Origin: Chloroflexota bacterium
GTDB taxonomy: Bacteria > Chloroflexota > Anaerolineae > Anaerolineales > Anaerolineaceae
Length of the DNA: 64,000 bases
Direction: 5' to 3'
Assembly (NCBI GenBank): GCA_029556265.1
Contig: JAKQFH010000003.1
Span: 1 to 64,000, forward strand
A model generated the notes under the pieces. That model ran no database searches, was not told the DNA's origin, and saw only the letters and a list, made by a program, of their open reading frames with translations. The translations under genes were made by a program, and so were the position numbers. Shown here in pieces: positions 40,992-56,061 of this stretch (position 1 is the first letter of the stretch; each line of letters begins with the position of its first letter).

Positions 40992-42719
40992 TTATAGCGC
41001 GGACACGCGCTCAGACTCGCGCTGCATAATCCGGCGCAGGATGGCAAGCGAGCACGCGTAGGTCGAGTCCATGCCCATGTACGAAAGGGCGCCCGCGCCA
41101 AGGTTCTGGCCTTTGGTCAGCGGTGTGTCTGAGACGTAATGCAGGATGCCAAGGTCAAAAGGCAGCTTATGCAGATTGACAATTTCGTTTACTGGATGCC
41201 GTTGGGGGCGGAAAAGCTCATAGATGGCCGAAAGATACGGCCCGGCTTCCATCTCAATATCCGTGTAGCCTTCGCGATAAATCACGTCCATGACCGTGGC
41301 GTTCTGCAGGAAGGTGCCCCACACGGAGACTGCTTTCTGATTATCCAGCACGGTGCCGTAGACCAGATAGGAGGAGAGGTCTGAAGCCTGGAAGTTGTTT
41401 TCGAAGAGGTAGGTATTCTTGGAATGTTCGTCGTAAACCACATTGGGGAGCACGACGTCACCGCGCACACCGTTCAGGCTGGCAGCTTTGCCCATGACAT
41501 AGATACCCAGAATTTGGGAGGCGTTTTCGGCGATTTTGGTCAGCAGGTGATAAGCGGCAAAACCGAGCGGATAGTCGATGTTCACAATCAGCGCGTCAGA
41601 ATCCTTTAGAAATCCCCACTCCGCGCAGCCGGGGCGCGCGCAGGGTTTTATGCGCGCGTCAATATTGTCTGGATTCAAACTGGAGAGTTCGATTACCTGG
41701 GCTTCAGTATCAAAGGCGTGCATGCTTGGGAAGCGGTGAATCCCGCGTTCCTTTTCAAAGCTGAGCTGTTGCTGCCAGGCTCCTTGACCCTCGGCGGAAG
41801 ACTGGTATTTTTTCATCACATAGTAGAAAAAGTTTTCCCTGCTGGCGAGGACAGATTTATTTTGGATATCCTGCCATTCGGCGAGCAATGCAGCCTGGTC
41901 TGAACTGTTGATATAACTTATCAGCTCGCTTTCTTTGCTGAGAGCGAAACCTGAAAGCAGATTTACCAGACTGTGGGTATTAGAGGAGACGAAATACAGC
42001 GGACGCTGGTTTACCTGCGGGTATTGCTTTTCTATCTTCTGCCACCAGGTTTCGGTTGCTTTGCGGTAATCGTTAAGCGAACCGCTGAGCAGTTGAATCC
42101 TGAAGTTGCATTTCGCGTTCGCGAAGGTTTCCATCGCCTCACCAAAACGGTCGCCTAGGACGGTGTAAAGGCGGCCAAACTCGTCGGCATTAATTTTCAG
42201 GTGCTGGGCAAGCTGCAGAAAGCGTTCTGGCTGCGCGGGGGTGACCTCCCGATATGAATCCCTGGGGATGCTGCTGAGCAGCCTGTTCAGTTTGTTCCAT
42301 TCAATCTGGAGGGCGGTCAAAGTCGGAACCACATCGTCAATATCCGAACGGGAGGCGATATAACATGCCATTTGCTCACCGCCGTCGTAGAAGCAGCGCC
42401 GCCGGCGCGCGCGGGCAGCCACTTCCGTCCAACTTTCCACGCTGCCATAGCCGTGCTGCGAAAAGTTGCTTTCCGTCTGCCCCAGGATAATCGTCCGGAC
42501 GTTAAAAATACATTCCGGCAGGCGCTGCAGGCTGTAAATCAGCGCGGATGTATCCGGAAAGGGATCGCGTGCGTGCGGGTGGAGAGAGGAGTTTATCCCG
42601 GAATGCACTTCTTCCAACGAGCGGATTTGAACCAGGTTGGTGGAGCGCAGCAGCGAATATATTGTGCGGAGGTAGAGATCAATTTCTTCTGAGGAGCGAA
42701 TCGGAACCAGTCTTTCCAT
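40992..42719 (-). CDS. Unrecognised 575-residue protein with nucleoside-phosphorylase-like C-terminal motifs
   Basis: I do not recognise this as a named family. It lacks a signal peptide and membrane helices. The N-terminal 240 residues look helical; residues about 355-370 hold two cysteines (CARPGC). The last third shows, in order, GKAASLNGVRGDVVLP (410-425), IEMEAGPY (488-495) and YVSDTPLTKGQ (528-538). In the purine nucleoside phosphorylase/MTA nucleosidase superfamily the same order occurs: a GxAGG...GD-V-V loop, the ribose-binding M-E pair and an I-S-D motif. I infer a divergent nucleoside-handling fold fused to a novel N-terminal domain. It is monocistronic. Confidence 0.75.
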   Translation of the reverse strand: MERLVPIRSSEEIDLYLRTIYSLLRSTNLVQIRSLEEVHSGINSSLHPHARDPFPDTSALIYSLQRLPECIFNVRTIILGQTESNFSQHGYGSVESWTEVAARARRRRCFYDGGEQMACYIASRSDIDDVVPTLTALQIEWNKLNRLLSSIPRDSYREVTPAQPERFLQLAQHLKINADEFGRLYTVLGDRFGEAMETFANAKCNFRIQLLSGSLNDYRKATETWWQKIEKQYPQVNQRPLYFVSSNTHSLVNLLSGFALSKESELISYINSSDQAALLAEWQDIQNKSVLASRENFFYYVMKKYQSSAEGQGAWQQQLSFEKERGIHRFPSMHAFDTEAQVIELSSLNPDNIDARIKPCARPGCAEWGFLKDSDALIVNIDYPLGFAAYHLLTKIAENASQILGIYVMGKAASLNGVRGDVVLPNVVYDEHSKNTYLFENNFQASDLSSYLVYGTVLDNQKAVSVWGTFLQNATVMDVIYREGYTDIEMEAGPYLSAIYELFRPQRHPVNEIVNLHKLPFDLGILHYVSDTPLTKGQNLGAGALSYMGMDSTYACSLAILRRIMQRESERVSAL

Positions 42720-43434: not shown

Positions 43435-44127
43435 ATGCTGTATCTTGTCGCGACCCCAATCGGAAACCTCGGGGATATGAGCTACCGCGCGGTGGAAACG
43501 CTGCGAATGGTGGATTTAATTGCCAGCGAGGACACACGCAAAACCAGCATCCTGTTGAAGCATTATGGAATATCCAAACCGCAGATCGCGTTCCATACCA
43601 TGAACGAAGCGAAAATGACTCCTAAATTGGTGGAGCGGCTGTTGGCTGGTGAGAACATCGCGCTGGTGACCAACGCGGGCACTCCCGGGATTTCTGATCC
43701 GGGCTATTCCCTCACGCATGCCGCGGTTCAGGCGGATATAGCGGTCACATCCATCCCTGGGGCTTCCGCGGTTATTACGGCGCTTACCCTTGCCGACTTG
43801 CCCTTGCACAGTTTTACTTTTAAGGGCTTCCCCCCGCATAAAGAAGGTCCGCGCAAGCGCTTTTTGGAGCAGGAAAAGCATTCCGCCCACACCCTGGTGT
43901 TTTATGAGAGCCCGTACCGCCTGATCGCATTCCTGAAAAATGCGCTGGAAATCTACGGCGACCGACGCGCGGTGCTTGCAAACGACCTGACCAAGAAGTT
44001 TGAGACGATCTGGCGCGGAAGTTTGAGCGAAATCCTGAGTGGCGTAGAAGCAAGCCCGATTAAGGGTGAATTCTGCATCTGCATTGAGGGCTGCGGGGAA
44101 GAAAAACCTAAAACGAAAGAGGGCTGA
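43435..44127 (+). CDS. rsmI: 16S rRNA (cytidine1402-2'-O)-methyltransferase
   Basis: This 230-residue tetrapyrrole-methylase-fold enzyme has the RsmI signatures [40 protein letters not shown] and YESPYRL. In E. coli it methylates the ribose of C1402 in the decoding centre of 16S rRNA. Residues are fully canonical, in contrast to the second RsmI-like gene at 49815. Its end overlaps the convergent yhhQ gene by 20 bases. Confidence 0.95.
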
Positions 44128-44842
44128 GATCCGAGAGGTCTGAATAAGTGTCCAGGTTTTCCGCTTTTTTCAGGCGGTTGGTCACCCAATACGTCGCGGG
44201 GGTCATGATAACTTCAATAGCAACCTTAAAGAGGTAATTGGTGAGGGTGAGCGTCAGGAACAGTTCCCAGGGGAAAACCCGGGTAAGCGCGCCCACCGCG
44301 ATGAAAACCGCCGTATCAACAAGTTCGCCCACCAGAGTGGAGCCAATCGTGCGCACCCACAGCCATTTGCCCTGGGTGGCATGTTTGAGCAGCGCCATAA
44401 TGACCGCGTTGGAAAAACTACCGCCCAGGTAGCCCAGGAAGCTTGCCAGAACAATTCCACCGGTGCTTATTCCGCCCAGAATTTTGTCATAAGCCGATTG
44501 ACCGACAGAATCTAACCAGGTTGTCTCGCCCGGGAGCCTTTGAATGAGGAAAAACATCAGGGTGGTAAACGCCAGGCCCAGGAAGCCAATCCAGATAACC
44601 CGCCGGGAGATTTGGTACCCGTATACTTCCGTGAGGACGTCCCCAAAGATATAGGCGATGGGAAAGAAAAGCGTGCCGGCGTCGAACGCCAGCGGAACCC
44701 CACCCAGGGAGACGCCCCAACCGATGAGTTTTGCCGATGAGGCGATGTTGCTGAGCGCCAGAACCAACGTGAAAACCACCGTTACGATATCCAGGTACCG
44801 GAAAGGGCGCGGCGCGGGCTTGGAGTGCGCGTTGTGGTCCAT
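44108..44842 (-). CDS. yhhQ: Queuosine precursor transporter (YhhQ/VUT family)
   Basis: This 244-residue membrane protein has about six to seven helices and the family pattern of [17 protein letters not shown] followed by RRVIWIGF. YhhQ imports queuosine precursors (preQ0/preQ1 or queuine) for insertion at tRNA position 34. The start is taken as the ATG at 44842; a longer reading through a GTG at 44884 would cover the divergent promoter palindrome. A tRNA-guanine transglycosylase homologue lies 4 kb away at 48724, consistent with a salvage role. Confidence 0.92.
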
Positions 44843-44849
44843 CAACGCA

Positions 44850-44876
44850 AAGTATACCTGTAAAAAAGGTATACTT
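44850..44876. promoter_or_regulatory. Palindromic divergent promoter of yhhQ and rsmE
   Basis: AAGTATACC (44850-44858) and GGTATACTT (44868-44876) form a perfect 9-base inverted repeat with a 9-base A-rich spacer. Each arm contains TATACT pointing outward. The two -10 elements lie 8 and 10 bases before the start codons at 44842 and 44886, so both transcripts should be leaderless or nearly so, and the palindrome itself could bind a dimeric regulator. Confidence 0.6.
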
Positions 44877-44885
44877 GTCCGCACG

Positions 44886-45638
44886 ATGCAGCGCTTTTTT
44901 GTGAATCCAGAAGCAATTCAGGACGGGGTAGTCCATTTCCCGGAGGCGGCAGCCCGCCAGATAGAAAAAGTGCTGCGTATGGACCTCCAGCTTGATGAAG
45001 TTCTCGTGTTGGACAACAGCGGCAGAAGCTTTCAGGTGCGCCTGAGCGGCAGGCAGTCTGGAACGCTGCGCGGAGAAGTGCTGCGGGTGCTTGAAGCTGA
45101 CCCGCGGACAGAACCGCGCCTGGAATTGGGTTTCAGCCTGTCTAAACGCGAAAAAGTGGAGTGGATTCTGCAGAAAGGAACGGAACTGGGAGTCAGCGCG
45201 TTCAGACCCTTCGTTTCGGAACGCAGCCTGGACCGCGGGTTGAAGCTGGATGAAGCCAGGTGGGCACGGTGGACCGCGATTATCCGGGAAGCTGCCGAGC
45301 AATCCCGGCGAACGCGCCTGCCGGAATTGCGCGCGCCTTTGAATTACGCGGATGGGTTGGGGCGCTTCCCACAGCAAAGCACCCGCTTGATTGCCTGGGA
45401 AGGAGCAGCACCGGAGTTCAGGCTGAGCCAGGAATGGTTTGCTGCCCGTGGCGGTGAGGCAGCCCCGGGCGCCAGCGTGCTGATTGGCCCGGAGGGCGGC
45501 TTTAGCGCGGAAGAGGTGCGGTTGGCGGAAAAAGCGGGCTTCAGGCAGTTCTCGCTCGGGCGGAATGTGCTGCGCATGGAAACCGCCTGCCTGACAGCCT
45601 GCGCTTTATGCGCGCACTATCTCGGCATCTCTTGTTAG
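44886..45638 (+). CDS. rsmE: 16S rRNA (uracil1498-N3)-methyltransferase
   Basis: This 250-residue SPOUT-fold enzyme has an N-terminal PUA-like part (MQRFFVNPE, EKVLRMD) and the C-terminal knot with IGPEGGFSAEEV and SLGRNVLRMETA, both RsmE signatures. In E. coli it methylates N3 of U1498 in helix 44. The ATG at 44886 gives the family N-terminus exactly and lacks a ribosome-binding site, in line with a leaderless transcript. Its TAG overlaps the TAA of the convergent rsmF-like gene within four bases. Confidence 0.95.
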   Translation: MQRFFVNPEAIQDGVVHFPEAAARQIEKVLRMDLQLDEVLVLDNSGRSFQVRLSGRQSGTLRGEVLRVLEADPRTEPRLELGFSLSKREKVEWILQKGTELGVSAFRPFVSERSLDRGLKLDEARWARWTAIIREAAEQSRRTRLPELRAPLNYADGLGRFPQQSTRLIAWEGAAPEFRLSQEWFAARGGEAAPGASVLIGPEGGFSAEEVRLAEKAGFRQFSLGRNVLRMETACLTACALCAHYLGISC

Positions 45639-47107
45639 GGGTTCAGAATCGCGCGGGAGGGCAGCAGATTGCGCAGCCGTCCGGGGAGGTTTTTCCCCGC
45701 GCCAAGGTTCCTGCCCTCGGCGTCACGCAGGGCGATGATGCTGCTTTTTTGGCAGCCGCTCACCGCGACGCCGCGAATATCGTGGCCTTGCAGCCACTGA
45801 CGCACCCATTCCTCAGGAATTGTCCACACATTACTCCTGAACCGGTCTCCAAAACGGCTTACCATTTCGGGGGAGAGCTCAAAATTTGTTCCGCTCCATT
45901 TGCCAAAAGGGAAACCTAAAGCGTAATAAGGCAGTTCAGAAAAGCCGCGCAGGTATTGCTCTGGCAGAAGGAAAAGCTGCCGCTCCCGGCGGTAGGGCAG
46001 CAGCTTACGTTTTTCTGTTTCCGCGCGGAAATCGAAACTATACAGGTCTTGCAGCATGGTAAACAGCAAAACCTGGTCTTTGGTTTCCAGGCGTTCCAGT
46101 CCGGTTTTAATGAAAGGCCGGAAAGGCGGCATCTGCCGGGGAAGGTTAAGCGGGGTGAGTTTGATGAGCTTGACCGCGAAAAAGCCGTTGGTACCCGCCA
46201 GGTGCGGCCATAAGCGCAGGCTGTGCGCGGCTTGCGGGTCAAAGTCGCGCCCTGCAAAGTGGGTTAATCCAGGGGCGTTCAATTCCGCCACCGTCGCGCG
46301 CTCCACACGGACACTGCCAGGATGTTTCTCCAGGAAGTCGCTTAAGACTGCTTCGTTCTCTTCCGGTGCAAGCGTGCAAGTGGAGTAAACAATTTCCGCG
46401 CCGACGCGCGCCGTGCTGACCGCAGACTCAAGCAAAGCGAATTGGCGCGCGGAAAGGCGTTCCCGTTCCGCCGCGGTAATCGGACGGAACGGATGGCTGG
46501 CGGAAACGCGCAGACCCTCCATGCTGCAGGGGGCATCGAGCAGTACGCGGTCAAAACGCTCAGGGAACCACGCGCCTAATTTTTCTCCCGGGAAATTGAT
46601 GACGGCGGTGTTAGCCGCGCCCCAGTTGAGAAGCACCACCCGCAGCGCTTGCAGCCGGCTGGCGCTGGAGTCGTTGGCGAGCACCAGGTTGGCGTCGCCG
46701 CCGCTATCCACCAGCTGCGTGGTTTTCCCGCCGGGCGAGGCAGCCATATCCAGCATGAGCCCATCGGTTGGGAGCGGGGAGAAAAGAGAAACTGGCAGAA
46801 TGGAAGCGGCGTCCTGAATGTAGTAATAGCCGAAACGGTGTTCGATGGTCTGTCCGGGCGGCGTTTGCGCGGAAGAAATTTGCCAGGCGTTGGACGCGAA
46901 AGGAACGGGCCGAGCCTGCCAACCATACGGTTGGCTCCAGCGGGAAAACGCTTGCCGCGGGTCGGGGTTCTTGAGAAGGTTTACGCGTACGGCACTGTCG
47001 GCGGGTTGGCTCACAACGCTGAGGAGCCGCGCGTATTCTTCCGGCGGGAGGCAGCTTTGATAGCGTTGCACAGCGCTGAGGACTGGGTCGGCAGGCGTGT
47101 CTGTCAC
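45635..47107 (-). CDS. rsmF: RsmF-like rRNA (cytosine-C5)-methyltransferase
   Basis: This 490-residue NOL1/NOP2/Sun-family enzyme has the SAM loop DMAASPGGKTTQL and the two catalytic cysteines Cys194 (DAPCSMEG) and Cys244 (YSTCTLAPEENE). A C-terminal extension of about 180 residues ends in a PUA-like domain (GRNLGAGKNLPGRLRN), the RsmF arrangement. In E. coli RsmF makes m5C1407 of 16S rRNA; in Thermus it acts on several nearby cytosines. It is the last gene of a five-gene overlapping operon and overlaps the upstream Rmt-like gene by 4 bases. Confidence 0.9.
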   Translation of the reverse strand: MTDTPADPVLSAVQRYQSCLPPEEYARLLSVVSQPADSAVRVNLLKNPDPRQAFSRWSQPYGWQARPVPFASNAWQISSAQTPPGQTIEHRFGYYYIQDAASILPVSLFSPLPTDGLMLDMAASPGGKTTQLVDSGGDANLVLANDSSASRLQALRVVLLNWGAANTAVINFPGEKLGAWFPERFDRVLLDAPCSMEGLRVSASHPFRPITAAERERLSARQFALLESAVSTARVGAEIVYSTCTLAPEENEAVLSDFLEKHPGSVRVERATVAELNAPGLTHFAGRDFDPQAAHSLRLWPHLAGTNGFFAVKLIKLTPLNLPRQMPPFRPFIKTGLERLETKDQVLLFTMLQDLYSFDFRAETEKRKLLPYRRERQLFLLPEQYLRGFSELPYYALGFPFGKWSGTNFELSPEMVSRFGDRFRSNVWTIPEEWVRQWLQGHDIRGVAVSGCQKSSIIALRDAEGRNLGAGKNLPGRLRNLLPSRAILNP

Positions 47108-47934
47108 CGCGATGAGCCTTTCCGGATGATAAAAAGCAGTTCATTCCCCACCTGATCTTGTTCGATTCCCCAACCCCGACCAGCGCAAGCTTTATCTATA
47201 AGCTGCGTGTGGTAGTCTACGAGGCTGTGATGCCCGCTCAGGTCTGCCGCAGGCAGACTGACCAGCAGCAGCGGCGCGCGCACGGCAGAGAAAAACGCGT
47301 CGTTGCATCCGGATTGACGCTTTTCAAAGCGGTGGGCTTCCTTGAAGAAAAACGCGCAGTCCGCCTCAATTTCGGGCGGTTCGCCAAGGATGTCCTGATG
47401 AATGGCCCGCGCGGAGGGGTATTTCAAGGCAAAAAATTGGCTGAGGAACTCCAGCCGGGGTTTGTGGATGTCGTACGCAAAGAAATTTACCTCCGCGGGC
47501 AGGTCCAGCCATAAGAGCATCAGCGGGTCCAGCGCGCAGGCCAGGTCCAGCACGGTGCCGGGAGAGCCAATGATTTTGCGCAATTTCCCGCAAAATTCAT
47601 CCAGATGGGGAAGCCGTTCGCGGGTGGAGGCGTGTTTCGACATAACGCCGGCAGCCCAGGCTTTTTGCTCACTTATGGTCGGGTTGGTTTCAAAGAACGA
47701 ACGCATTGCCTCGGATTCGGTGGGGTAGTCAATATCCTCAAGATACGGCGCGACGATATTATGCAGTTTTCTGCGGAAAGCGGCCGTGATTTCGGCACTG
47801 CTGCCGCCTTTGGCAGTCTGTTCCGTGAGGATTTGGCGCAGCAAATTCCCGGGCAGGTCCAGCTCGCGGTATTTACGCGAAGCGCGGACTTCGGCAATGA
47901 TTTTCTCGACCAGGCTCTCATCCATCGCGTTCAC
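47104..47934 (-). CDS. Divergent Arm/Rmt-family 16S rRNA methyltransferase homologue
   Basis: This 276-residue protein keeps the Arm/Rmt-family N-terminal half: helical domain, HASTRERLP (101-109), SAM-binding DLACALDPL (130-138, where the family has ACGLNPL) and YDIH (154-157). Its C-terminal signature is changed: FFKEAHRFEKRQSG (196-209) replaces the LLKxLPxLExQ-type segment, and SLPAADLSGHHSLVDYH (226-242) replaces SFPT(R/K)SLGGRxxGM. GNELLFIIRK (263-272) is retained. It may have a different target or be a partner of the canonical copy just upstream. The GTG at 47934 overlaps that gene's stop; the ATG at 47925 is an alternative start. Confidence 0.8.
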   Translation of the reverse strand: MNAMDESLVEKIIAEVRASRKYRELDLPGNLLRQILTEQTAKGGSSAEITAAFRRKLHNIVAPYLEDIDYPTESEAMRSFFETNPTISEQKAWAAGVMSKHASTRERLPHLDEFCGKLRKIIGSPGTVLDLACALDPLMLLWLDLPAEVNFFAYDIHKPRLEFLSQFFALKYPSARAIHQDILGEPPEIEADCAFFFKEAHRFEKRQSGCNDAFFSAVRAPLLLVSLPAADLSGHHSLVDYHTQLIDKACAGRGWGIEQDQVGNELLFIIRKGSSR

Positions 47935-48743
47935 CGGGAGAGCAAAAAGACCATTTCGGTGGGGAAGTTAAATTCGCGCACATGAAAGCGCGCACCTTCC
48001 ATCAGACGGGCAAACTGCTGGGAATAGGTCTGGCGCATGCCTTTTTCCCGGCCCCCAAGGCTCTTAGAGGGGTAAGAGACCAGGATATGCTCGGCACGGA
48101 TTTGCGACAGCAGGCGGGCGCTCAGACTCTTATCCAATTGGTCCAGGCAGGGCAGCGTTTTGAGCAGGATGGCCAGCTGAACCTCCTGCCGCGGGATTTC
48201 AGAGCTAAGGTCGCAGGGGAAGGCTTCGCCCTGAGCCGAGGCCGCCCTGAAGAAATGGTTCAGGAAGCTCAGCATGGGCAGGATGACATCGCAGGCGAGG
48301 TAAGTGCAGCCCGGCGCGAGAGGCATCCAGGGCAGCGCCAGCGGGTTCAGCCCGCATGCCAGGTCCAGGATTGAATTTATCGGCGCGATATCCGCCAGGC
48401 AGGTCTGGAAAAAATGGTCAACATAGGGCAGACGTTCGGCTGTGGAGTTGTGCAGGCGCATCATCCTCCGGCAAAAAGCCTGCAGTTCTTCTGGGTTTTC
48501 TGGGGGTATGGATTTTAAAATATCCGACCACTTCGCGTAGTTAATTTCAGGGGCGAGAAACGCGCCGGTTACCTGATGCAGGCGGGTGCGGGCAGCTTTC
48601 AGCGCGGCTTTGTACTCCCCGCGTTTTTCCAACTCTTCAGCCGCAACGCGCGCCACCAGGCTGGGGGCGAGCTGGGAGTATTTCGCGCTCCCGCAAATTG
48701 CCTGGATCAGCTTATCGAGGGCATCAGGAGAGGATGGGTTCAT
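47931..48743 (-). CDS. Arm/Rmt/FmrO-family 16S rRNA (guanine1405-N7)-methyltransferase homologue
   Basis: This 270-residue protein carries the whole signature of the aminoglycoside-resistance 16S m7G1405 methyltransferases. After an N-terminal helical domain come HNSTAERLP (98-106), the SAM site DLACGLNPLALPW (127-139), ACD (150-152), LLKTLPCLDQ (193-202), SYPSKSLGGREKGM (223-236) and EMVFLL (263-268). Family members in antibiotic producers (FmrO, Sgm, KgmB) and acquired ones (ArmA, RmtA-H) methylate G1405 in the A site and block 4,6-disubstituted 2-deoxystreptamines. Here it is embedded in a housekeeping-style RNA-modification operon with unremarkable base composition, so it looks native. 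GGAG lies 10 bases before the ATG. Activity is inferred. Confidence 0.88.
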   Translation of the reverse strand: MNPSSPDALDKLIQAICGSAKYSQLAPSLVARVAAEELEKRGEYKAALKAARTRLHQVTGAFLAPEINYAKWSDILKSIPPENPEELQAFCRRMMRLHNSTAERLPYVDHFFQTCLADIAPINSILDLACGLNPLALPWMPLAPGCTYLACDVILPMLSFLNHFFRAASAQGEAFPCDLSSEIPRQEVQLAILLKTLPCLDQLDKSLSARLLSQIRAEHILVSYPSKSLGGREKGMRQTYSQQFARLMEGARFHVREFNFPTEMVFLLSR

Positions 48744-49818
48744 CGCTCAGATGCTCCATCAGGCGGGTCATAAAACGCAGATTGTGTTGGGTGGCAAGAC
48801 GGAAATAGGCGCTATCTTGCATGCGGTAAAGGTGGCTGAGGTAGCCCAGGCTGTAATGTTGGCAGGCCGGGCAGTCGCATCCCGGAGAAACTGGCTCTTT
48901 ACTGCGCATATACTTTTCATCGTTCACGTAACGGAAAGCGAACCAATCCTTGCCTGTGCCGGGCACAGCGCTCGCGGAAGATAGCGTATAGAGGCGCCCG
49001 TGGCGCGCGTCCCGGGTGGGCATGGCACAGTCGAACATCGCGTAGCCCATGCGGTAGCAAGCCGAGACGCTGACCGGATGTCCGATGCCGAGCGCGTGGA
49101 TGGGGAACTCGCGCGGCACCACAGAACGGGTGTATTCCAGAATATCTGTGAGCAGATTGGACTGTTCATCCAGGGGCCAGCCGCCAAAGCCAAACCCGTC
49201 AAAACCAATTTCAAGCAAGGCTTCGGCACAGGTTTTACGCAGCTGCGGATAGCCGCCGCCCTGAATGACGCCGAAGATGAGCGGTCTTTGGTCCGGGTTC
49301 GTTTTTCGGGAGGCAAGCTGGCTCTCGTAAGCGAATTTCGCGCGCTTTGCCCATTGAATGGTGCGGCTGACCGAAAGCTGCTGTTCTTCGAAAGGAGCGT
49401 CCACGTGTGTGCAGTCATCCAGGCAAATCAGGATGTCCGCGCCGTAGCTGAATTGGAGTTGGATGCTTTTCTCGGGCGTGAGAATCAGTTTGCGGCCGGA
49501 GGCTTCGGGCCGGAAAATGATGCCGTTTTCACCCAGGCTGCCAAATTTCGCGTTCTGACGAATGAGGGAATAGGCCTGAAAGCCGCCCGAGTCGGTCATG
49601 ATGACTGAGTCCCAGGCTGCCATTGTGTGCAAGCCTCCCAAAGATTGGATGACCGAGGAGCCGGGTTTTTGCATCAGATGAAACGCGTTCATCATAAGGG
49701 CTTTGACGCCGACTTCATGCAAGTCGGCGCTGGTGAGGCTGCGCACATAGCCGTAGGTCGCGTCTGGCAGGAAAGCAGGCAAAGCCAATTCCCGACCGCG
49801 AATGTTCAGCGTGTTCAT
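48724..49818 (-). CDS. tRNA-guanine transglycosylase-family protein with altered substrate loop
   Basis: This 364-residue TGT-fold protein has all catalytic residues: Asp76 (TDSGGFQ), Asp134 (LDDCTH), Gln186 (GVIQGG), nucleophile Asp263 (FDCAMPTRDARHG), and the zinc site Cys314, Cys316, Cys319, His345. The base-selecting loop after GFGFGG reads WPLDE (214-218), where bacterial enzymes have LAVGE (preQ1) and eukaryotic ones LSGGE (queuine). The incoming base may therefore differ. Its ATG overlaps the stop of the RsmI-like gene by 4 bases and its end overlaps the Rmt-like gene by 20. yhhQ nearby could supply the base. Confidence 0.88.
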   Translation of the reverse strand: MNTLNIRGRELALPAFLPDATYGYVRSLTSADLHEVGVKALMMNAFHLMQKPGSSVIQSLGGLHTMAAWDSVIMTDSGGFQAYSLIRQNAKFGSLGENGIIFRPEASGRKLILTPEKSIQLQFSYGADILICLDDCTHVDAPFEEQQLSVSRTIQWAKRAKFAYESQLASRKTNPDQRPLIFGVIQGGGYPQLRKTCAEALLEIGFDGFGFGGWPLDEQSNLLTDILEYTRSVVPREFPIHALGIGHPVSVSACYRMGYAMFDCAMPTRDARHGRLYTLSSASAVPGTGKDWFAFRYVNDEKYMRSKEPVSPGCDCPACQHYSLGYLSHLYRMQDSAYFRLATQHNLRFMTRLMEHLSDEPILS

Positions 49819-50522
49819 AATCTGCCGAACTGCTTTCTCCGCGGGCGGTCCAAAATGAGGATGAACTCGGCTTTACGGTTGTTGATCTGCCGGATTACTT
49901 CCTCGACTGACCCGAGGTAAATCTTCTCGCCGGGCAGGGTCAGGTCGCAAGCCAGGCAAACGCGCTGATTTTTACCAAAAGCCTGCTGTACTTCCAAAAG
50001 CAGCTTTCCCAGCCGATAGGGGGTGTCCATCAGAATGATGGGCTGGTCCGCGCGGCTCAGTCGGGAAAGAACGCTCTGGCGCTGCTCTGTTTTGGGCGGC
50101 AAAAAGCCCGCGAATTGAAACTGCCCCAGGTCGAAAGGGCAAACGGATATCGCCGCAATCAGAGAGGAGGCGCCAGGAACAGGAACAACCCGAATGTTCA
50201 TTTCGGCGAGCAAGACCAGCAGCTGACGCCCCGGGTCCGAAAAAACAGGCGTACCGCAGTCCGAAATTAACGCCAGCGACTGACCTTGCATGAGCAGAAC
50301 CAGAATATCCTGCGTCATACTGCTTTCGTTATGCTCGTTAAGTTCAATCAGCGGCTTCTCCAGCCCGAGCTCTTTTAGCAGGCGCGCGCCGTTCTTTCTT
50401 TCCTCGCAGACGACTGCATCCACGTTTGAGAGCACTTCCACGGCGCGGCGGGTAACATCCGCGGAGTTGCCAATCGGGGTGGCAACCACATAGAGTGCCC
50501 CAGCAGGGTTTTCAGCGTGCAT
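49815..50522 (-). CDS. RsmI-like SAM-dependent methyltransferase, divergent paralogue
   Basis: This 235-residue tetrapyrrole-methylase-fold protein resembles RsmI (VVATPIGNSADVTRRAVEVL, SDCGTPVFSDPG) but differs at characteristic positions: CEERKNGARLLKELG where RsmI has SEDTRKTxxLL, and MDTPYRLG in place of YESPYRL. A canonical RsmI is already encoded at 43435, so this copy probably modifies another site or substrate. It is the first gene of the operon with the TGT and Rmt homologues; AGAGG precedes the ATG. Confidence 0.85.
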   Translation of the reverse strand: MHAENPAGALYVVATPIGNSADVTRRAVEVLSNVDAVVCEERKNGARLLKELGLEKPLIELNEHNESSMTQDILVLLMQGQSLALISDCGTPVFSDPGRQLLVLLAEMNIRVVPVPGASSLIAAISVCPFDLGQFQFAGFLPPKTEQRQSVLSRLSRADQPIILMDTPYRLGKLLLEVQQAFGKNQRVCLACDLTLPGEKIYLGSVEEVIRQINNRKAEFILILDRPRRKQFGRL

Positions 50523-50549
50523 TGGTCAGAACCTCTTTCATCAGGGTTG

Positions 50550-50555
50550 ATTATA
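50550..50555 (-). promoter_or_regulatory. -10 element of the five-gene RNA-modification operon
   Basis: TATAAT on the minus strand lies 27 bases before the first ATG at 50522; there is no good -35. The spacer is shared with divergent murJ, for which CATAAT (50593-50598) is a candidate. Confidence 0.45.
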
Positions 50556-50642
50556 TAACAAGCCATCGGTAATCGCCGCGCCGCAAATATGGCATAATAC
50601 TTCCATTCGGCAGCGCAAAACCTGCCATGTTTACTGCGAGGA

Positions 50643-52187
50643 ATGATGAAAAAAATCAGTCGGCTGACTAAAGTATCTCTGCTTCTGGCGGTATTGTTTT
50701 CGTTGGATAAACTGCTCGGTGTGGCGCGCCAGATGCTGGTTTCCCGCCAGTTTGGACTTTCTGCTGAATTGGATGTGTTCAATGCCGCGAACAATCTGCC
50801 GGACATGCTTTTCATGCTTATTTCGGGCGGCGCGCTGGCGATTGCTTTTATTCCGGTGCTGACCGAAGTCCTGTCAAAAGACGGACGGGAGAAGGCATGG
50901 GCTCTGTTTTCGAATATTCTCAACATCTCGTTTCTGGTTACGGCGGCTCTGGCGCTGTTAATTGCCATATTTGCCAGACCGTTGGTGAGCGGAAATCTCG
51001 GTATCGCCCCGGGCTTCAGCAGCGCCCAAATGGAATTGACCATCAAACTCTTACGCCTCAACCTGATCTCGACCTTGATTTTCTCGTTAAGCGGGTTGGT
51101 CATGGCGGGTTTGCAGGCGAATCAGCATTTTTTCCTGCCGGCGCTTGCCCCGATTTTCTATGATTTTGGCCAGATTTTTGGCGTGCTCATCCTGGCGCCA
51201 GAGCGGCCCTACCAGTTTGGCCCGATTACGCTGCCGGCGCTGGGCCTGGGGATAGAAGGGATGGTCTACGGGGTAATCCTGGGCGCGCTGCTGCACTTGC
51301 TAATTCAGGTGCCCGGTTTGGTTAAATATCGTTTTCGCTGGCAGCCCCGTGCCAACCTGAAAGATCCGGAAACCATAAAAGTCCTGAGGCTGATGGGTCC
51401 GCGAGTGCTGAGCATGTTTTTTATCCAGCTGATTTTTCTGGCGCAGGACAATTTTGCCTCGCGTCTGGCGACAGGTTCGGTCACAGCCCTGACTTACGGC
51501 TGGTGGATTATGCAGGTGCCGGAAACCTTGATTGGCACGGCAATCGCGACCGCGGTGTTGCCGACTTTGGCAGAGTTATTCAGCCAACAGGCATTTGCGC
51601 AGCTGAAGGTGAAAATTGAACGCGCCGGACAGGTAATGCTGGCGCTGACCATTCCAATCGCAATTATTGGCGGGGTCGTTATCCAACCCCTCATTCAGGC
51701 GCTGCTGGGGCTCGAACCAGCCGACACAGTGCGGGTGGTGCTGGTTACCCGTATTTTTCTGCTGGGCATCAGCGGTCACTCCCTGGTAGAGTTGTTCGTC
51801 CGGTCTTTTTATGCCATGCAAAAGCCGAAATACCCACTTATCTTTTCTGCCAGCACGCTGTTGGTTTATCTTGGCGCGGGATGGCTGCTTTCTTCACGGT
51901 ATGACGCAGCAGGCATCGCTGCAGCGAACACGCTGGCGTATTCGCTGCAGGCTCTGGTCCTGTTCATTCTACTGAGCAAAGTTCTGGCGGAGAAACTTGA
52001 GCTGCTTCCCGCTTTCGTGAAGGCAATCCTGGCGGCTGCGCTTGGCGGAGCGGCTGCCTGGTTGGTGATGCGCTTCGCGCCTATCCCAGGCGGTCGGATT
52101 GTTAGCGCGCTTGCCGCCGCCCTGCTGGCGCTTTTGCCCGCGGGAGTGGTGCTGCGTAAGGAATTACGCGCCCTGACCAGCCTTTAA
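50643..52187 (+). CDS. murJ: Lipid II flippase MurJ (MviN family)
   Basis: This 514-residue polytopic protein of the MOP exporter superfamily has about 14 hydrophobic helices and the MurJ pattern near the N-terminus (DKLLGVARQMLVSRQFG, VFNAANNLPDMLF). It moves the peptidoglycan precursor lipid II across the membrane. Two adjacent ATGs (50643, 50646) follow GAGGA; the second has slightly better spacing. With the L,D-transpeptidase at 21128 it supports peptidoglycan metabolism in this organism. Confidence 0.93.
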   Translation: MMKKISRLTKVSLLLAVLFSLDKLLGVARQMLVSRQFGLSAELDVFNAANNLPDMLFMLISGGALAIAFIPVLTEVLSKDGREKAWALFSNILNISFLVTAALALLIAIFARPLVSGNLGIAPGFSSAQMELTIKLLRLNLISTLIFSLSGLVMAGLQANQHFFLPALAPIFYDFGQIFGVLILAPERPYQFGPITLPALGLGIEGMVYGVILGALLHLLIQVPGLVKYRFRWQPRANLKDPETIKVLRLMGPRVLSMFFIQLIFLAQDNFASRLATGSVTALTYGWWIMQVPETLIGTAIATAVLPTLAELFSQQAFAQLKVKIERAGQVMLALTIPIAIIGGVVIQPLIQALLGLEPADTVRVVLVTRIFLLGISGHSLVELFVRSFYAMQKPKYPLIFSASTLLVYLGAGWLLSSRYDAAGIAAANTLAYSLQALVLFILLSKVLAEKLELLPAFVKAILAAALGGAAAWLVMRFAPIPGGRIVSALAAALLALLPAGVVLRKELRALTSL

Positions 52188-52195
52188 GCCTGGAG

Positions 52196-52201
52196 TATAA
52201 T
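52196..52201 (+). promoter_or_regulatory. -10 element just upstream of the TPR-like gene
   Basis: TATAAT ends 9 bases before the ATG at 52211, and CTGACC (52173-52178) lies 17 bases further upstream as -35. The predicted transcript starts at or a few bases before the start codon, and no ribosome-binding site is visible. Confidence 0.55.
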
Positions 52202-52210
52202 TGCCATACT

Positions 52211-53338
52211 ATGGACGATAACAACGAAAACAAAACACACGAAATTTCACCAGACCCGGAACGGGAAGCTCCGGTCAGCGAATTTGAACCGATATCGCCC
52301 GCTGGCGCGCCTGCGGACAACCCTTCAGCTCGCAAACGCCGCTTTCCCTGGATTTGGTTGGGAGTACTTTTTTTTATCCTCATGCTCGCTATCGGGGTGT
52401 TTTGGGGCTACCGCCGGGGGATAGCCCGACGGCTTTCCCGGGAACAAACCACCGCGGTGGAAGTCGCCTCTGAGCAGTATTTGCTTGCTTACCAGGACAT
52501 CTCAGCCGGGAATTATCAGAACGCGAAAGCGCGTATTGAGTATGTCATCAAGATTTACCCGCAGTTTCCGGGCGCCCCCGAACTGCTGCGCAGTATTCTG
52601 ATGAATATTGAACAACCGACACCTACCGCTACATTGGCAATCATCGCGTCCCTGACGCCAGCCCCCAGCGGAACACCCGACACACGCAGTGCGGAGGAAG
52701 CTTTCAAGTCGATTGCCGCGGCTGCCGCAGCCAAACAATGGCAGGCAGTTCTCGACGATGTGATTGCTATCCAGCAGATTAATTATGCTTATCGGACTGT
52801 GGATGTGAGCGGCTACTATTACCTCGCGCTGCGCAACCTGGGTATCCAGAAGATACAGGCAGGCGAGCTGGAGCAGGGGTTATTTGACCTCTCTTCTGCG
52901 GAGCAAATCGGCCCTCTGGATGGGGAAGCTGATGGCGTCCGTTCGTGGGCAACGCTTTACCTGAGCGGCGCCAGCTTTTGGGATGTTAACTGGCAGCGTG
53001 CTATTGAGATTTTCCAACAACTTAAAGAAGCCTACCCCTATATGATGGACGCTTCGGGGATGACTGCTCTCGAACGTTATCGCGTCGCGCTGTATAAATA
53101 TGGCGACCAGATAGCAAACGCAGGGGATTACTGCACCGCTTACCAATACTACTTGAAGTCGCTGGCTGTGGGGCCGGATGCCAACGTCCAGGCCACCGCG
53201 GAAATTTACAAGCAGAATTGCGAATCATCGCGGCCAACGCAAGTGACGCCGACGCAGCCGACCCCTCCGGATGGTACGCTCACCCCGCCGACGGAAGTGA
53301 CGCCCGCGCCGCCGACTCCGGAAATCCCGACGCCCTGA
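52211..53338 (+). CDS. Membrane-anchored TPR-like protein, unknown function
   Basis: This 375-residue protein has a charged, disordered N-terminal 40 residues, one transmembrane helix (about 47-68) and an external helical region with TPR-like pairs (AGNYQNAKARIEYVIKIYPQ, AGELEQGLFDLSSAEQIG, CTAYQYYLKSLAVGPDANVQ). The tail is a Thr/Pro-rich repeat (TPTQPTPP, TPPTEVTPAPP). The layout is typical of Anaerolineae surface or scaffold proteins. No enzymatic motif is seen. A strong terminator follows. Confidence 0.8.
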   Translation: MDDNNENKTHEISPDPEREAPVSEFEPISPAGAPADNPSARKRRFPWIWLGVLFFILMLAIGVFWGYRRGIARRLSREQTTAVEVASEQYLLAYQDISAGNYQNAKARIEYVIKIYPQFPGAPELLRSILMNIEQPTPTATLAIIASLTPAPSGTPDTRSAEEAFKSIAAAAAAKQWQAVLDDVIAIQQINYAYRTVDVSGYYYLALRNLGIQKIQAGELEQGLFDLSSAEQIGPLDGEADGVRSWATLYLSGASFWDVNWQRAIEIFQQLKEAYPYMMDASGMTALERYRVALYKYGDQIANAGDYCTAYQYYLKSLAVGPDANVQATAEIYKQNCESSRPTQVTPTQPTPPDGTLTPPTEVTPAPPTPEIPTP

Positions 53339-53356
53339 AGTCTGCAAACACACAAA

Positions 53357-53389
53357 AGCCCGACCTGTCAACAGGGTCGGACTTTTTTT
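53357..53389. terminator. Bidirectional terminator between TPR-like gene and rimO
   Basis: A stem built on CCGACC/GGTCGG with the loop closed by TGT-CA-ACA (one bulged G) is followed on plus by CTTTTTTT and on minus by CTTTTG. It serves both convergent genes. Confidence 0.85.
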
Positions 53390-53410
53390 GGATGTGAAAA
53401 CAGGCGGCAA

Positions 53411-54763
53411 TCAGCGGGCGGCAGGGGGGAGCACTTCACCAAAAAGGTCGTGCTGCAGCGCCGTCTTGATGCGTACCGGCAGCATTTCGCCAGGTTCGGC
53501 TTTCCCTTCCGCGATAACTAAACCGTCCACTTCGGGGGCGTCGCGATAGCTTCTTCCAACCAGGATATTGTGTTCCATGTCAGTGCCTTCAACCAGCATA
53601 TTGAGGACTTTATCCTTGAAAATCTGGTTCTTTCGCAAAGAAATACCCGCCTGGAGCGTCATCAGTTCTTCACGGCGGGCTTCTTTGACAGATTGCGTGA
53701 TTGGGTCACCCAGCGCTTCCGCAGGCGTACCGGCTTCGGGAGAATATGTGAACACGCCGACGTGGTCAAACTGCATCTCCCGCACGAAATCCAGCAGCGT
53801 GTTGAAACGTTCCTGAGTCTCATTTGGGAAGCCAACGATAAAGGTAGTGCGGATGACGAGCTCTGGTATCCTGATGCGCATATCGGCGATGGTTTTTCGT
53901 ACCCAGTCAACGTCCGTGGGGCGGCGCATCGCACGCAGCACTTCCGGGTCCGCGTGCTGCAAGGGGATATCGAGATAAGGCAGCAGCTGCTCTGAGCTCG
54001 CCATCAGGTCAATCAGGCGCTCTGAGACATAGCCAGGGAAAGTATAGAGCAGCCGCACCCAAGGGACGTCCGGAATGCTGGGAAGCAGCTCCTCCAGTAA
54101 ATCTGACAAGCCGTCCTGAATGCCGAGGTCCTGACCGTAGTCGGTTACATCCTGGGCGATAAGGTTGATTTCCCTGACCCCCATCGCCTGCAAAGCCAGC
54201 GCGTCGGCAAGGACGTCTTCTTTAGGCCGGCTGACCAAGGCGCCTTTTATGCCGGGAATCGCGCAAAACGCGCAGGACCGCCGGCAGCCGTCGGCGATTT
54301 TCAGGTAGCTGCTGGGCCCTTGGACCGCGTATCCCGGCAGACCAGAGAGGAACCGGATGCGCGCATGGTCCGGAATTGCCGGCAGCGCGGTTTGGTCAGG
54401 CGCCTGGCGCAGATGGGTAAGCAAGGGCAGGATATCGCTCAGGTCCCGTGTGCCAATCATGCCGTCAATCCCGGGCACCTGTGTCAACAGAGCCTCCTGA
54501 TAGCGTTGGGAGAGACAGCCCGCGGCGATCAATTTTTGTCCGCGTTTTTTTTGTCGGGCAAGTTTCCGAAGCACATGGATGGATTCTGTCCGGGCGTCGT
54601 GAATAAAACCGCAGGTGTTGACAATGATATATTCTGCTGAGGAGGCGGTGTTCACCGGGATGGAGCCCTGCCTGGTGAGCAGGCTTTCAATGCTGCTGGA
54701 GTCCACCTGATTCTTCGCGCAGCCAAGGGTCGTAATAAAGAAAGTACCGGGCGCGATTTTCAT
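53411..54763 (-). CDS. rimO: Ribosomal protein S12 methylthiotransferase RimO
   Basis: This 450-residue enzyme has the N-terminal UPF0004 cluster cysteines 15 (TTLGCAKNQVDS), 51 and 83, the radical SAM cysteines 160, 164, 167 (CRRSCAFCAIPGIKG) and a C-terminal TRAM domain. RimO adds a methylthio group to the conserved aspartate of ribosomal protein S12 near the decoding centre. The TTLGCAKN start separates it from MiaB. It overlaps the RodZ-like gene by 4 bases. Confidence 0.95.
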   Translation of the reverse strand: MKIAPGTFFITTLGCAKNQVDSSSIESLLTRQGSIPVNTASSAEYIIVNTCGFIHDARTESIHVLRKLARQKKRGQKLIAAGCLSQRYQEALLTQVPGIDGMIGTRDLSDILPLLTHLRQAPDQTALPAIPDHARIRFLSGLPGYAVQGPSSYLKIADGCRRSCAFCAIPGIKGALVSRPKEDVLADALALQAMGVREINLIAQDVTDYGQDLGIQDGLSDLLEELLPSIPDVPWVRLLYTFPGYVSERLIDLMASSEQLLPYLDIPLQHADPEVLRAMRRPTDVDWVRKTIADMRIRIPELVIRTTFIVGFPNETQERFNTLLDFVREMQFDHVGVFTYSPEAGTPAEALGDPITQSVKEARREELMTLQAGISLRKNQIFKDKVLNMLVEGTDMEHNILVGRSYRDAPEVDGLVIAEGKAEPGEMLPVRIKTALQHDLFGEVLPPAAR

Positions 54764-56061
54764 GGTTTGGCTGTTGGCGAGGGGGTTAATAAATAAGAAG
54801 GCATGGAAGAAAGGTCCGTCATACCCGTTGGGTCAAAGCGGAGGCGCCCCACAGCTCCAACCCGATTAATCGGCTCGAGAGAGGCGCTGTTGAACACAAA
54901 AGAAAGCGCCGCGACATTCCCGGTTTCCACCTCAATATACGCGTTGGCGCTGTAAGCGCTGGCGCTTCCGGAGCTCATCCTGCCCTGGTAAAGCACTTTA
55001 CCATCCGCGCTGACGCGCACCCAAACGGTCTGCCGGGCTTGAATGACCAACTGCACCGAGGCGTTCGTATCTGTCGGCAGAATTAAGGGAGTTGGGGAGG
55101 GAAGAATGACGGCTTGTTCAGTCAGGGCTGGCGTCAAGGTTGGCATCCACGATATCGGCGTCTTTGAGCCGATGAGAACGTCAGCCATCTCCGGGAGCTG
55201 GGTTGATTCGGCGTTTAGGTCTGGTTTGCTCAACAGGTCGGCGGCGCCCCAGATTAAGAAAATGAGAATGCCGCCCACCAAAAGGGTCCCAAAAAAGAGA
55301 TCCAATGTGAAAAACCGCCGCAAAGCCAGCAAAAAGGGAGGCAGGACGCGGGCTTCGCCCTTTCCTTTCAAGGCGCCTTCGGCTTTTTCCAATCTGCGCT
55401 CCTGCAGCGCGTCCGCGAAACGGATTAGCAGCAAATCGGTATCCAGGTTTAGAAAGCGGGCGTAGGTTTGCAGCAGCCCTTTGGCTTCGGACGGGCTGGC
55501 AAAGGTATCCAGCATCCCTTGTTCGAGCGCCACCAGCTGCTTTTTGGGAATGCGGGTCTGCTCGCTGAGCAAATCCCAGGGGATATCCAGGTATTTTCGG
55601 CGGTTTTGGAGTTCCCTGCCGATTTCATCCAGGATTTGTTGGGATGGTGAGCTGGGAGAGAGCGTCGGGGCGGGTTTTTCTTTGCTTTTTTTTGACTGCT
55701 TACCGGGCTGTGGAGAGTGAAGGGTTAGTTTATTTGCTTTTTTATCGGGCTGTGGGGCCGCTTGTATGGTTGGCCGCGAAGCCGAAACGGAGCCCGCTTC
55801 CGGGCTCTTGGGCAAGTTGGCTGTGGTAACAGGCGCGCTTGCGGTAGTTTTTTGGGGCGCTTCGAACGGCACCCCCAGAAAATCCGCGTACAACTTGAGA
55901 AAGCCGCGAGCCTGGGTGCGCGAACCAAGCTCGGCGTATTCATCCATCTCGAGGGCTTGCAACAGGGAAAGACGGATGCGGGTAGCGCTGGCAACCTGCT
56001 CAAGCGGTATATGCTTTTCTTCCCGGATTGCTCTCAGCTGGGAACCGGATAATTCTGACAT
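54760..56061 (-). CDS. RodZ-like membrane protein with two helix-turn-helix domains
   Basis: This 433-residue protein starts with a RodZ-type HTH (about residues 5-65, IREEKHIPLEQVASATRIRL), followed by a Lys/Pro-rich linker, a second HTH of the same kind (about 140-225, RRKYLDIPWDLLSEQTRIPK), a transmembrane helix (about 252-275) and a C-terminal DUF4115 beta domain (about 335-425, TVWVRVSADGKVLYQG). RodZ links the MreB cytoskeleton to wall synthesis. The repeated HTH is unusual. Its promoter is embedded in the upstream terminator, and rimO follows with a 4-base overlap. Confidence 0.87.
   Translation of the reverse strand: MSELSGSQLRAIREEKHIPLEQVASATRIRLSLLQALEMDEYAELGSRTQARGFLKLYADFLGVPFEAPQKTTASAPVTTANLPKSPEAGSVSASRPTIQAAPQPDKKANKLTLHSPQPGKQSKKSKEKPAPTLSPSSPSQQILDEIGRELQNRRKYLDIPWDLLSEQTRIPKKQLVALEQGMLDTFASPSEAKGLLQTYARFLNLDTDLLLIRFADALQERRLEKAEGALKGKGEARVLPPFLLALRRFFTLDLFFGTLLVGGILIFLIWGAADLLSKPDLNAESTQLPEMADVLIGSKTPISWMPTLTPALTEQAVILPSPTPLILPTDTNASVQLVIQARQTVWVRVSADGKVLYQGRMSSGSASAYSANAYIEVETGNVAALSFVFNSASLEPINRVGAVGRLRFDPTGMTDLSSMPSYLLTPSPTAKP

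Follow-up and report, generated by a model that had tools for sequence, protein, structure and literature searches.

A Chloroflexota gene cluster that pairs an Arm/Rmt-type methyltransferase with a diverged tRNA-guanine transglycosylase paralogue

Genes at the locus

A stretch of 64,000 nucleotides from a Chloroflexota bacterium (assembly GCA_029556265.1, contig JAKQFH010000003.1, positions 1 to 64,000; here called the window, always meaning the whole stretch) contains a group of RNA- and ribosome-modification genes, among them tgt2, which codes for a paralogue of tRNA-guanine transglycosylase (TGT), and rmtA, which codes for a methyltransferase of the Arm/Rmt (FmrO) family. The source is a metagenome-assembled genome that is 85% complete, and the cluster lies on its contig G000:C60; the closest relatives that bear a name are Anaerolineaceae bacteria. 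Families were assigned by Pfam and NCBIfam profile searches of the window proteins (Table 1). These supported every family named in a preliminary description of this DNA, that is two rsmI genes, yhhQ, rsmE, rsmF, two rmt-like genes, a tgt-like gene and rimO. The true unit is an operon of five overlapping minus-strand genes, rsmI2–tgt2–rmtA–rmtB–rsmF, running from position 50522 to 45635 with overlaps of 4-20 bp between neighbours. Its core consists of tgt2 and rmtA, often accompanied by rsmI. Beyond rsmF follow rsmE (plus strand), yhhQ (minus) and rsmI1 (plus); on the other side murJ and a TPR-like gene, both on the plus strand, sit between rsmI2 and rimO.

Table 1 Cluster genes and their neighbours in the window
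Gene	Assignment	Position	Strand	Profile support
rsmI1	canonical RsmI	43435..44127	+	TIGR00096, 221 bits
yhhQ	queuosine-precursor transporter (QPTR)	44108..44884	-	TIGR00697, 105 bits
rsmE-like	predicted 16S U1498 N3-methyltransferase; convergent neighbour, frequently conserved	44883..45638	+	PF04452; TIGR00046, 139 bits
rsmF-like	predicted 16S m5C1407 methyltransferase; last of the five operon genes	45635..47107	-	PF01189 and PF17125; RsmF equivalog, 225 bits
rmtB	diverged second Rmt-like methyltransferase	47104..47934	-	PF07091, 131 bits; Sgm, E=1e-25
rmtA	Arm/Rmt (FmrO) methyltransferase, predicted m7G1405	47931..48743	-	PF07091, 169 bits; NF000466, 218 bits; Sgm, E=1e-43
tgt2	GGWP-type TGT paralogue	48724..49818	-	TIGR00430, 310 bits; PF01702, 305 bits
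rsmI2	RsmI-like, predicted 16S C1402 2'-O-methyltransferase; first of the five operon genes	49815..50522	-	TIGR00096, 180 bits (cut-off 167.9)
rimO	S12 methylthiotransferase; outside the operon	53411..54763	-	TIGR01125, 450 bits
rodZ	paired and overlapping with rimO	54760-56061		RodZ domains

Pairing of tgt2 and rmt across the phylum

Among the genomes searched, FmrO genes occurred in 30 of 150 from the class, in 77 of 400 from the phylum and in none of 14 controls. A hidden Markov model of 17 Tgt2 proteins (profile A1) matched 71 of 396 class genomes and 70 of the 400 phylum genomes. All of the latter also carried FmrO (70/70); seven phylum genomes had FmrO only, and tgt2 only was found in none. 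The nominal Fisher probability of this co-occurrence is about 1e-70, a purely descriptive value since shared ancestry was left uncorrected. Several of the seven FmrO-only genomes were incomplete or had their match at a contig end. An Rmt gene without tgt2 was seen in near-complete genomes, namely G253 (FmrO at C1:447953-448714) and G068, L050 (rsmI-rmtA), which provide natural controls for Rmt alone.

An FmrO gene was located within 300 bp of tgt2 and on the same strand in 57 of the 70 genomes. It lay downstream of tgt2 in 47 of these and upstream in the other 10; gene order is thus not fixed. In the remaining genomes the two genes were on different contigs or further apart and both were still retained (e.g. 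G067, G479, G570, G598, G035). Were the genes scattered at random over genomes of about 4-5 Mb, we estimate that well below 1 such adjacency would be expected, which bears out the earlier view that the clustering is unlikely to be random. The tgt2 and rmtA core was found across the Chloroflexota and on two contigs labelled Chthonomonas or Chthonomonadaceae (L250, L253); conservation is not confined to close relatives, whereas such confinement is what the preliminary description had named as a refutation. The arrangement tgt2-rmtA-rmtB-rsmF with rsmE, yhhQ and rsmI recurred nearly unchanged in dozens of Anaerolineaceae contigs. Cultured carriers of the pair include Bellilinea, Levilinea, Ornatilinea, Thermosporothrix and Dictyobacter.

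The long syntenic blocks kept in the Anaerolineaceae loci, and a co-occurrence statistic inflated by shared ancestry, would suit an ordinary housekeeping grouping, in which genes for modifying rRNA and tRNA form loose clusters and tgt2 is passed on together with rmt merely through a shared operon. This explanation is very improbable, given that the pair is retained when unlinked, in both orders and in many families, and that the canonical tgt is not the copy found beside rmt.

The Tgt2 and Rmt proteins

By profile Tgt2 is a member of the TGT family (PF01702, 305 bits against a cut-off of 26.3), while TIGR00430, the sole profile support for preQ1 insertion at tRNA G34, gave 310 bits against a cut-off of 306.75. 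A canonical second tgt is located on another contig of the same genome and scored 519 bits, compared to 304 for tgt2. Class genomes carrying tgt2 carry canonical Tgt as well, which rules out Tgt2 as a substitute for a lost canonical enzyme. In a tree built without archaeal or eukaryotic Tgt, Tgt2 fell into a clade of its own; the stem that divides it from canonical Tgt measured 1.23 substitutions per site, with support of 1.0 on the canonical and 0.875 on the Tgt2 side. The AlphaFold2 model (predicted local distance difference test score 90.5) adopted the TIM-barrel TGT fold with a template modelling score of 0.88 to Z. mobilis TGT (4htb, 1q2r).

Residues were compared between 144 Tgt2 sequences and canonical Tgt in Z. 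mobilis Tgt numbering. The catalytic D102/D280, D156, C158, Q203 and the zinc ligands C318/C320/C323/H349 were retained in 96-100% of the Tgt2 sequences. G204, G230, R286 and R289 were kept too. As far as sequence can tell, these intact active-site residues rule out a degenerate pseudo-enzyme. In-frame stops had been flagged in some tgt2 matches; the homologous stretches were clean in all three cases checked. The nucleobase loop differed clearly, with the canonical GGL-A/S-VGE replaced by GG-W-P-x-x through the substitutions L231W, A/S232P (100%), V233L and G234D and a variable E235; in the window protein the loop reads W-P-L-D. Further substitutions were V45D, K52R, Y258H, L259A, M260L and D267N/S. 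GGWP was also present in the 20 additional loci from the phylum, even in the most distant members, among which D234 varies. In the distant loci L295-L303 (families f67, f70, f85 and f106), GGWP was kept, D234 mostly not, and rmt lay upstream of tgt2.

In Z. mobilis Tgt the NH of the 231/232 peptide faces guanine, with the Ala232 NH reaching N7 via water, and the C=O faces preQ1; E235 holds this switch, and A232S alone lowers kcat about 100-fold (PMC3660597). The combination of a 231/232 switch with E235 and V233 is absent from Tgt2. As a proline at position 232 has no main-chain NH, the switch cannot operate as it does in Z. mobilis Tgt. Pro232 is a fact of the sequences, while what it may do to substrate choice we infer from it. 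In comparison with bacterial Tgt (Z. mobilis, E. coli; TIGR00430), Tgt2 thus shares about 30% identity, the fold, the catalytic Asp pair, the D156/Q203 base-edge contacts and the zinc site, but differs in its clade, its GGWPxx loop with Pro232, the loss of E235 conservation, V45D, Y258H and M260L, its coexistence with canonical Tgt and its obligate association with Rmt. At the very least, it represents a TGT subfamily that is new and occurs in a new association. Earlier shifts of the TGT fold to other targets are those to tRNA G15 in archaeal TgtA and to DNA in DpdA. Tgt2 scores far lower to both (100 and 23 bits, respectively) than to bacterial Tgt. Base exchange in DNA by a TGT relative has been described (PMC6884629), and literature searches turned up no rRNA-acting TGT. 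An earlier description of the tgt2-Rmt pair was likewise not found in the literature searched, which mostly did not cover subscription papers.

The preliminary description had read the tgt-like gene as a wobble queuosine enzyme and had counted yhhQ as part of the module. The first reading fits poorly, since canonical Tgt is also present and the base pocket of Tgt2 is rebuilt; the second was not sustained, because QPTR showed no association with tgt2 in the phylum (30 of 70 genomes with tgt2 and 116 of 330 without it, p=0.27). YhhQ was accordingly rejected as an obligate base supplier and is a local neighbour only; at most Anaerolineaceae loci its gene is found next to the cluster, and in L159 and L234 it lies upstream. 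Still, Tgt2 might be another transglycosylase for tRNA G34 that inserts a base other than the canonical one, for instance to salvage a particular queuosine precursor. It would then be kept together with Rmt because both adjust decoding, and the two would share no substrate. We regard this as the main rival since R286 and R289 remain, and the TGT fold, the zinc site and the transporter gene beside the Anaerolineaceae loci point the same way. It is nevertheless rather doubtful: a canonical Tgt already serves the class genomes with tgt2, the transporter is not enriched with tgt2, the 70/70 dependence on Rmt is hard to square with loose co-tuning, and V45, K52 and D267, outside the base pocket, have changed too.

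RmtA is full length, has its FmrO domain above the cut-off, carries S-adenosylmethionine and target motifs of the family and keeps the motifs ERLP, DLACGLNPL, LLKTLP and SLGGRxKGM. Its best match in the PDB was Sgm, and an orthologue from Thermosporothrix scored 255 in NCBIfam, where the cut-off for Rmt is 250. In RmtB the S-adenosylmethionine-site residues and a conserved lysine were kept and the SLGGRxKGM target loop was lost. The KG of this loop was absent from all aligned members of the RmtB subfamily (about 60 sequences), none of which shows the target-loop pattern (F/Y)P..SLG.R.KGM. The subfamily instead has an invariant KE-x-HR motif where Sgm has K-T-L-P-C. In view of this motif of its own, a decayed duplicate was rejected; RmtB probably differs in role or target while acting at the same location.

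Known Arm/Rmt enzymes methylate N7 of G1405 and are resistance methyltransferases (PMC12340973). The window RmtA resembles Sgm, ArmA, RmtB and RmtC in its full length and conserved motif positions; unlike theirs, its gene is chromosomal, stably inherited, in an operon with tgt2, rsmI and rsmF, and next to a diverged partner, the window's own RmtB, with a different target loop. An aminoglycoside-type resistance module, in which Rmt shields the A site and Tgt2 adds further protection by taking away another contact of the drug, would agree with the family's reputation, and Ktedonobacteria have been described as a secondary-metabolite resource (PMC6497799). We consider such a module improbable in view of the housekeeping neighbours (murJ, rodZ, rsmE) and of the stable inheritance over whole families including the small-genome Anaerolineaceae; moreover, we noticed no genes for biosynthesis or transfer at these loci, where no systematic search for them was made.

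A possible decoding-centre module

Other predicted 16S rRNA methyltransferase genes recur beside the core. In 24 of 71 class loci rsmI lay at most 400 bp from tgt2 on the same strand. It adjoins the pair on L250 and L253 and also within the Chloroflexota, both in the organism's own family and in others, and in many families it is located upstream of tgt2. In the same genus and in close Anaerolineaceae this upstream gene is rsmI2, whereas in other families one rsmI1-like gene occupies the position; the two rsmI genes of the window look like a local duplication. The window RsmF combines the RsmB/F domain with the RsmF N-terminal domain and scored 225 bits, compared to 124 and 115 for the RsmB and tRNA models; this is under the equivalog cut-off of 588, and C1407 would be its target. 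The gene is conserved downstream of rmtB in Anaerolineaceae loci. Two RsmF subtypes adjoin tgt2, an E. coli-like one in Anaerolineaceae and a Thermus-like one (386-398 bits) in family f36, where it is divergent from tgt2 (L173, L174, L178, L161, L170). In three loci of f36 (L165, L168, L172) rmtA is followed by rmtB-rsmE-rsmI, and in L159 yhhQ-rsmI-tgt2-rmtA-rmtB-rsmF-rsmE are all on the same strand. The preliminary description had also counted rimO as part of the module. The gene is the partner of rodZ, and only in the organism's own family does it come after the cluster, in a rodZ-rimO-TPR-murJ block; RimO was rejected as a member. Elsewhere in the window, at 40992-42719, a DUF6909 protein of 575 aa (Pfam, 740 bits) is encoded between the genes for valS and a HAD hydrolase.

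G1405 lies amid the sites of RsmF, RsmI/RsmH and RsmE, and Rmt enzymes are reported to interfere with two of these proteins: RsmF is blocked by Sgm and RmtC, and RsmI by ArmA (PMC12406665). Such proximity, with competition or cooperation between these sites and methylation at G1405, may be the reason why the genes for RsmI (C1402), RsmF (C1407) and RsmE (U1498) are grouped with the core. That Tgt2 never occurs without Rmt, and Rmt sometimes without Tgt2, is the asymmetry expected if Tgt2 is downstream of Rmt, and so strict a one-way dependence suggests a pathway between both enzymes rather than loose co-tuning. With a probability of roughly 0.5 we favour a 16S helix-44 decoding-centre module with RmtA and Tgt2 as obligate core, in which Tgt2 needs and most likely follows RmtA. 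RmtA would methylate a guanine at N7, most likely that of G1405, and Tgt2 would then act on this guanine or on one next to it and swap out a base that is no longer held in its pocket by the N7 hydrogen bond. We infer that 16S is the target, in which order the enzymes act and which base comes in. From the earlier proposal of a coordinated tuning of the decoding centre, the recurrence of RsmI, RsmF and RsmE with Rmt stands, while the wobble queuosine part fits poorly.

Several points weigh against a helix-44 module. The window RmtA stayed under the NF000466 cut-off (218 against 250 bits), and Rmt-family identity predicts, but does not prove, G1405 as its target. The retained Arg286 and Arg289, which in canonical Tgt presumably help to read the U-G-U anticodon loop, leave room for a tRNA target, and G1405 lies within a helix, unlike known TGT substrates. 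Furthermore, helix 44 was ordinary at the C1402, G1405, C1407 and U1498 contexts in genomes with and without tgt2 (the 16S gene of the organism itself is absent from the assembly). No change in it tracked tgt2, and the rRNA sequence therefore gives no pointer to a swapped base.

The one-way asymmetry and the pocket change together lead to a more specific, and in our judgement unlikely, proposal: Tgt2 may replace the base of the m7G1405 made by RmtA. In m7G1405 the charged N7-methyl base would be a good leaving group and the N7 acceptor would be gone. Tgt2, whose Pro232 is unable to donate to N7, would attack the m7G nucleotide, and the new base would be a 7-deazaguanine or guanine.

The current profile labels name Tgt2 a queuine tRNA-ribosyltransferase and RmtA an aminoglycoside-resistance gene, and the strict pairing indicates that both miss the biology. 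Should methylation indeed be followed by a swap, the result would be the first case of base exchange in rRNA, or else an eraser of m7G. Action of Tgt2 on rRNA would extend base exchange past tRNA and DNA to a new kind of rRNA modification, and Rmt/Arm enzymes would gain a housekeeping role, with a bearing on the origin of resistance methyltransferases.

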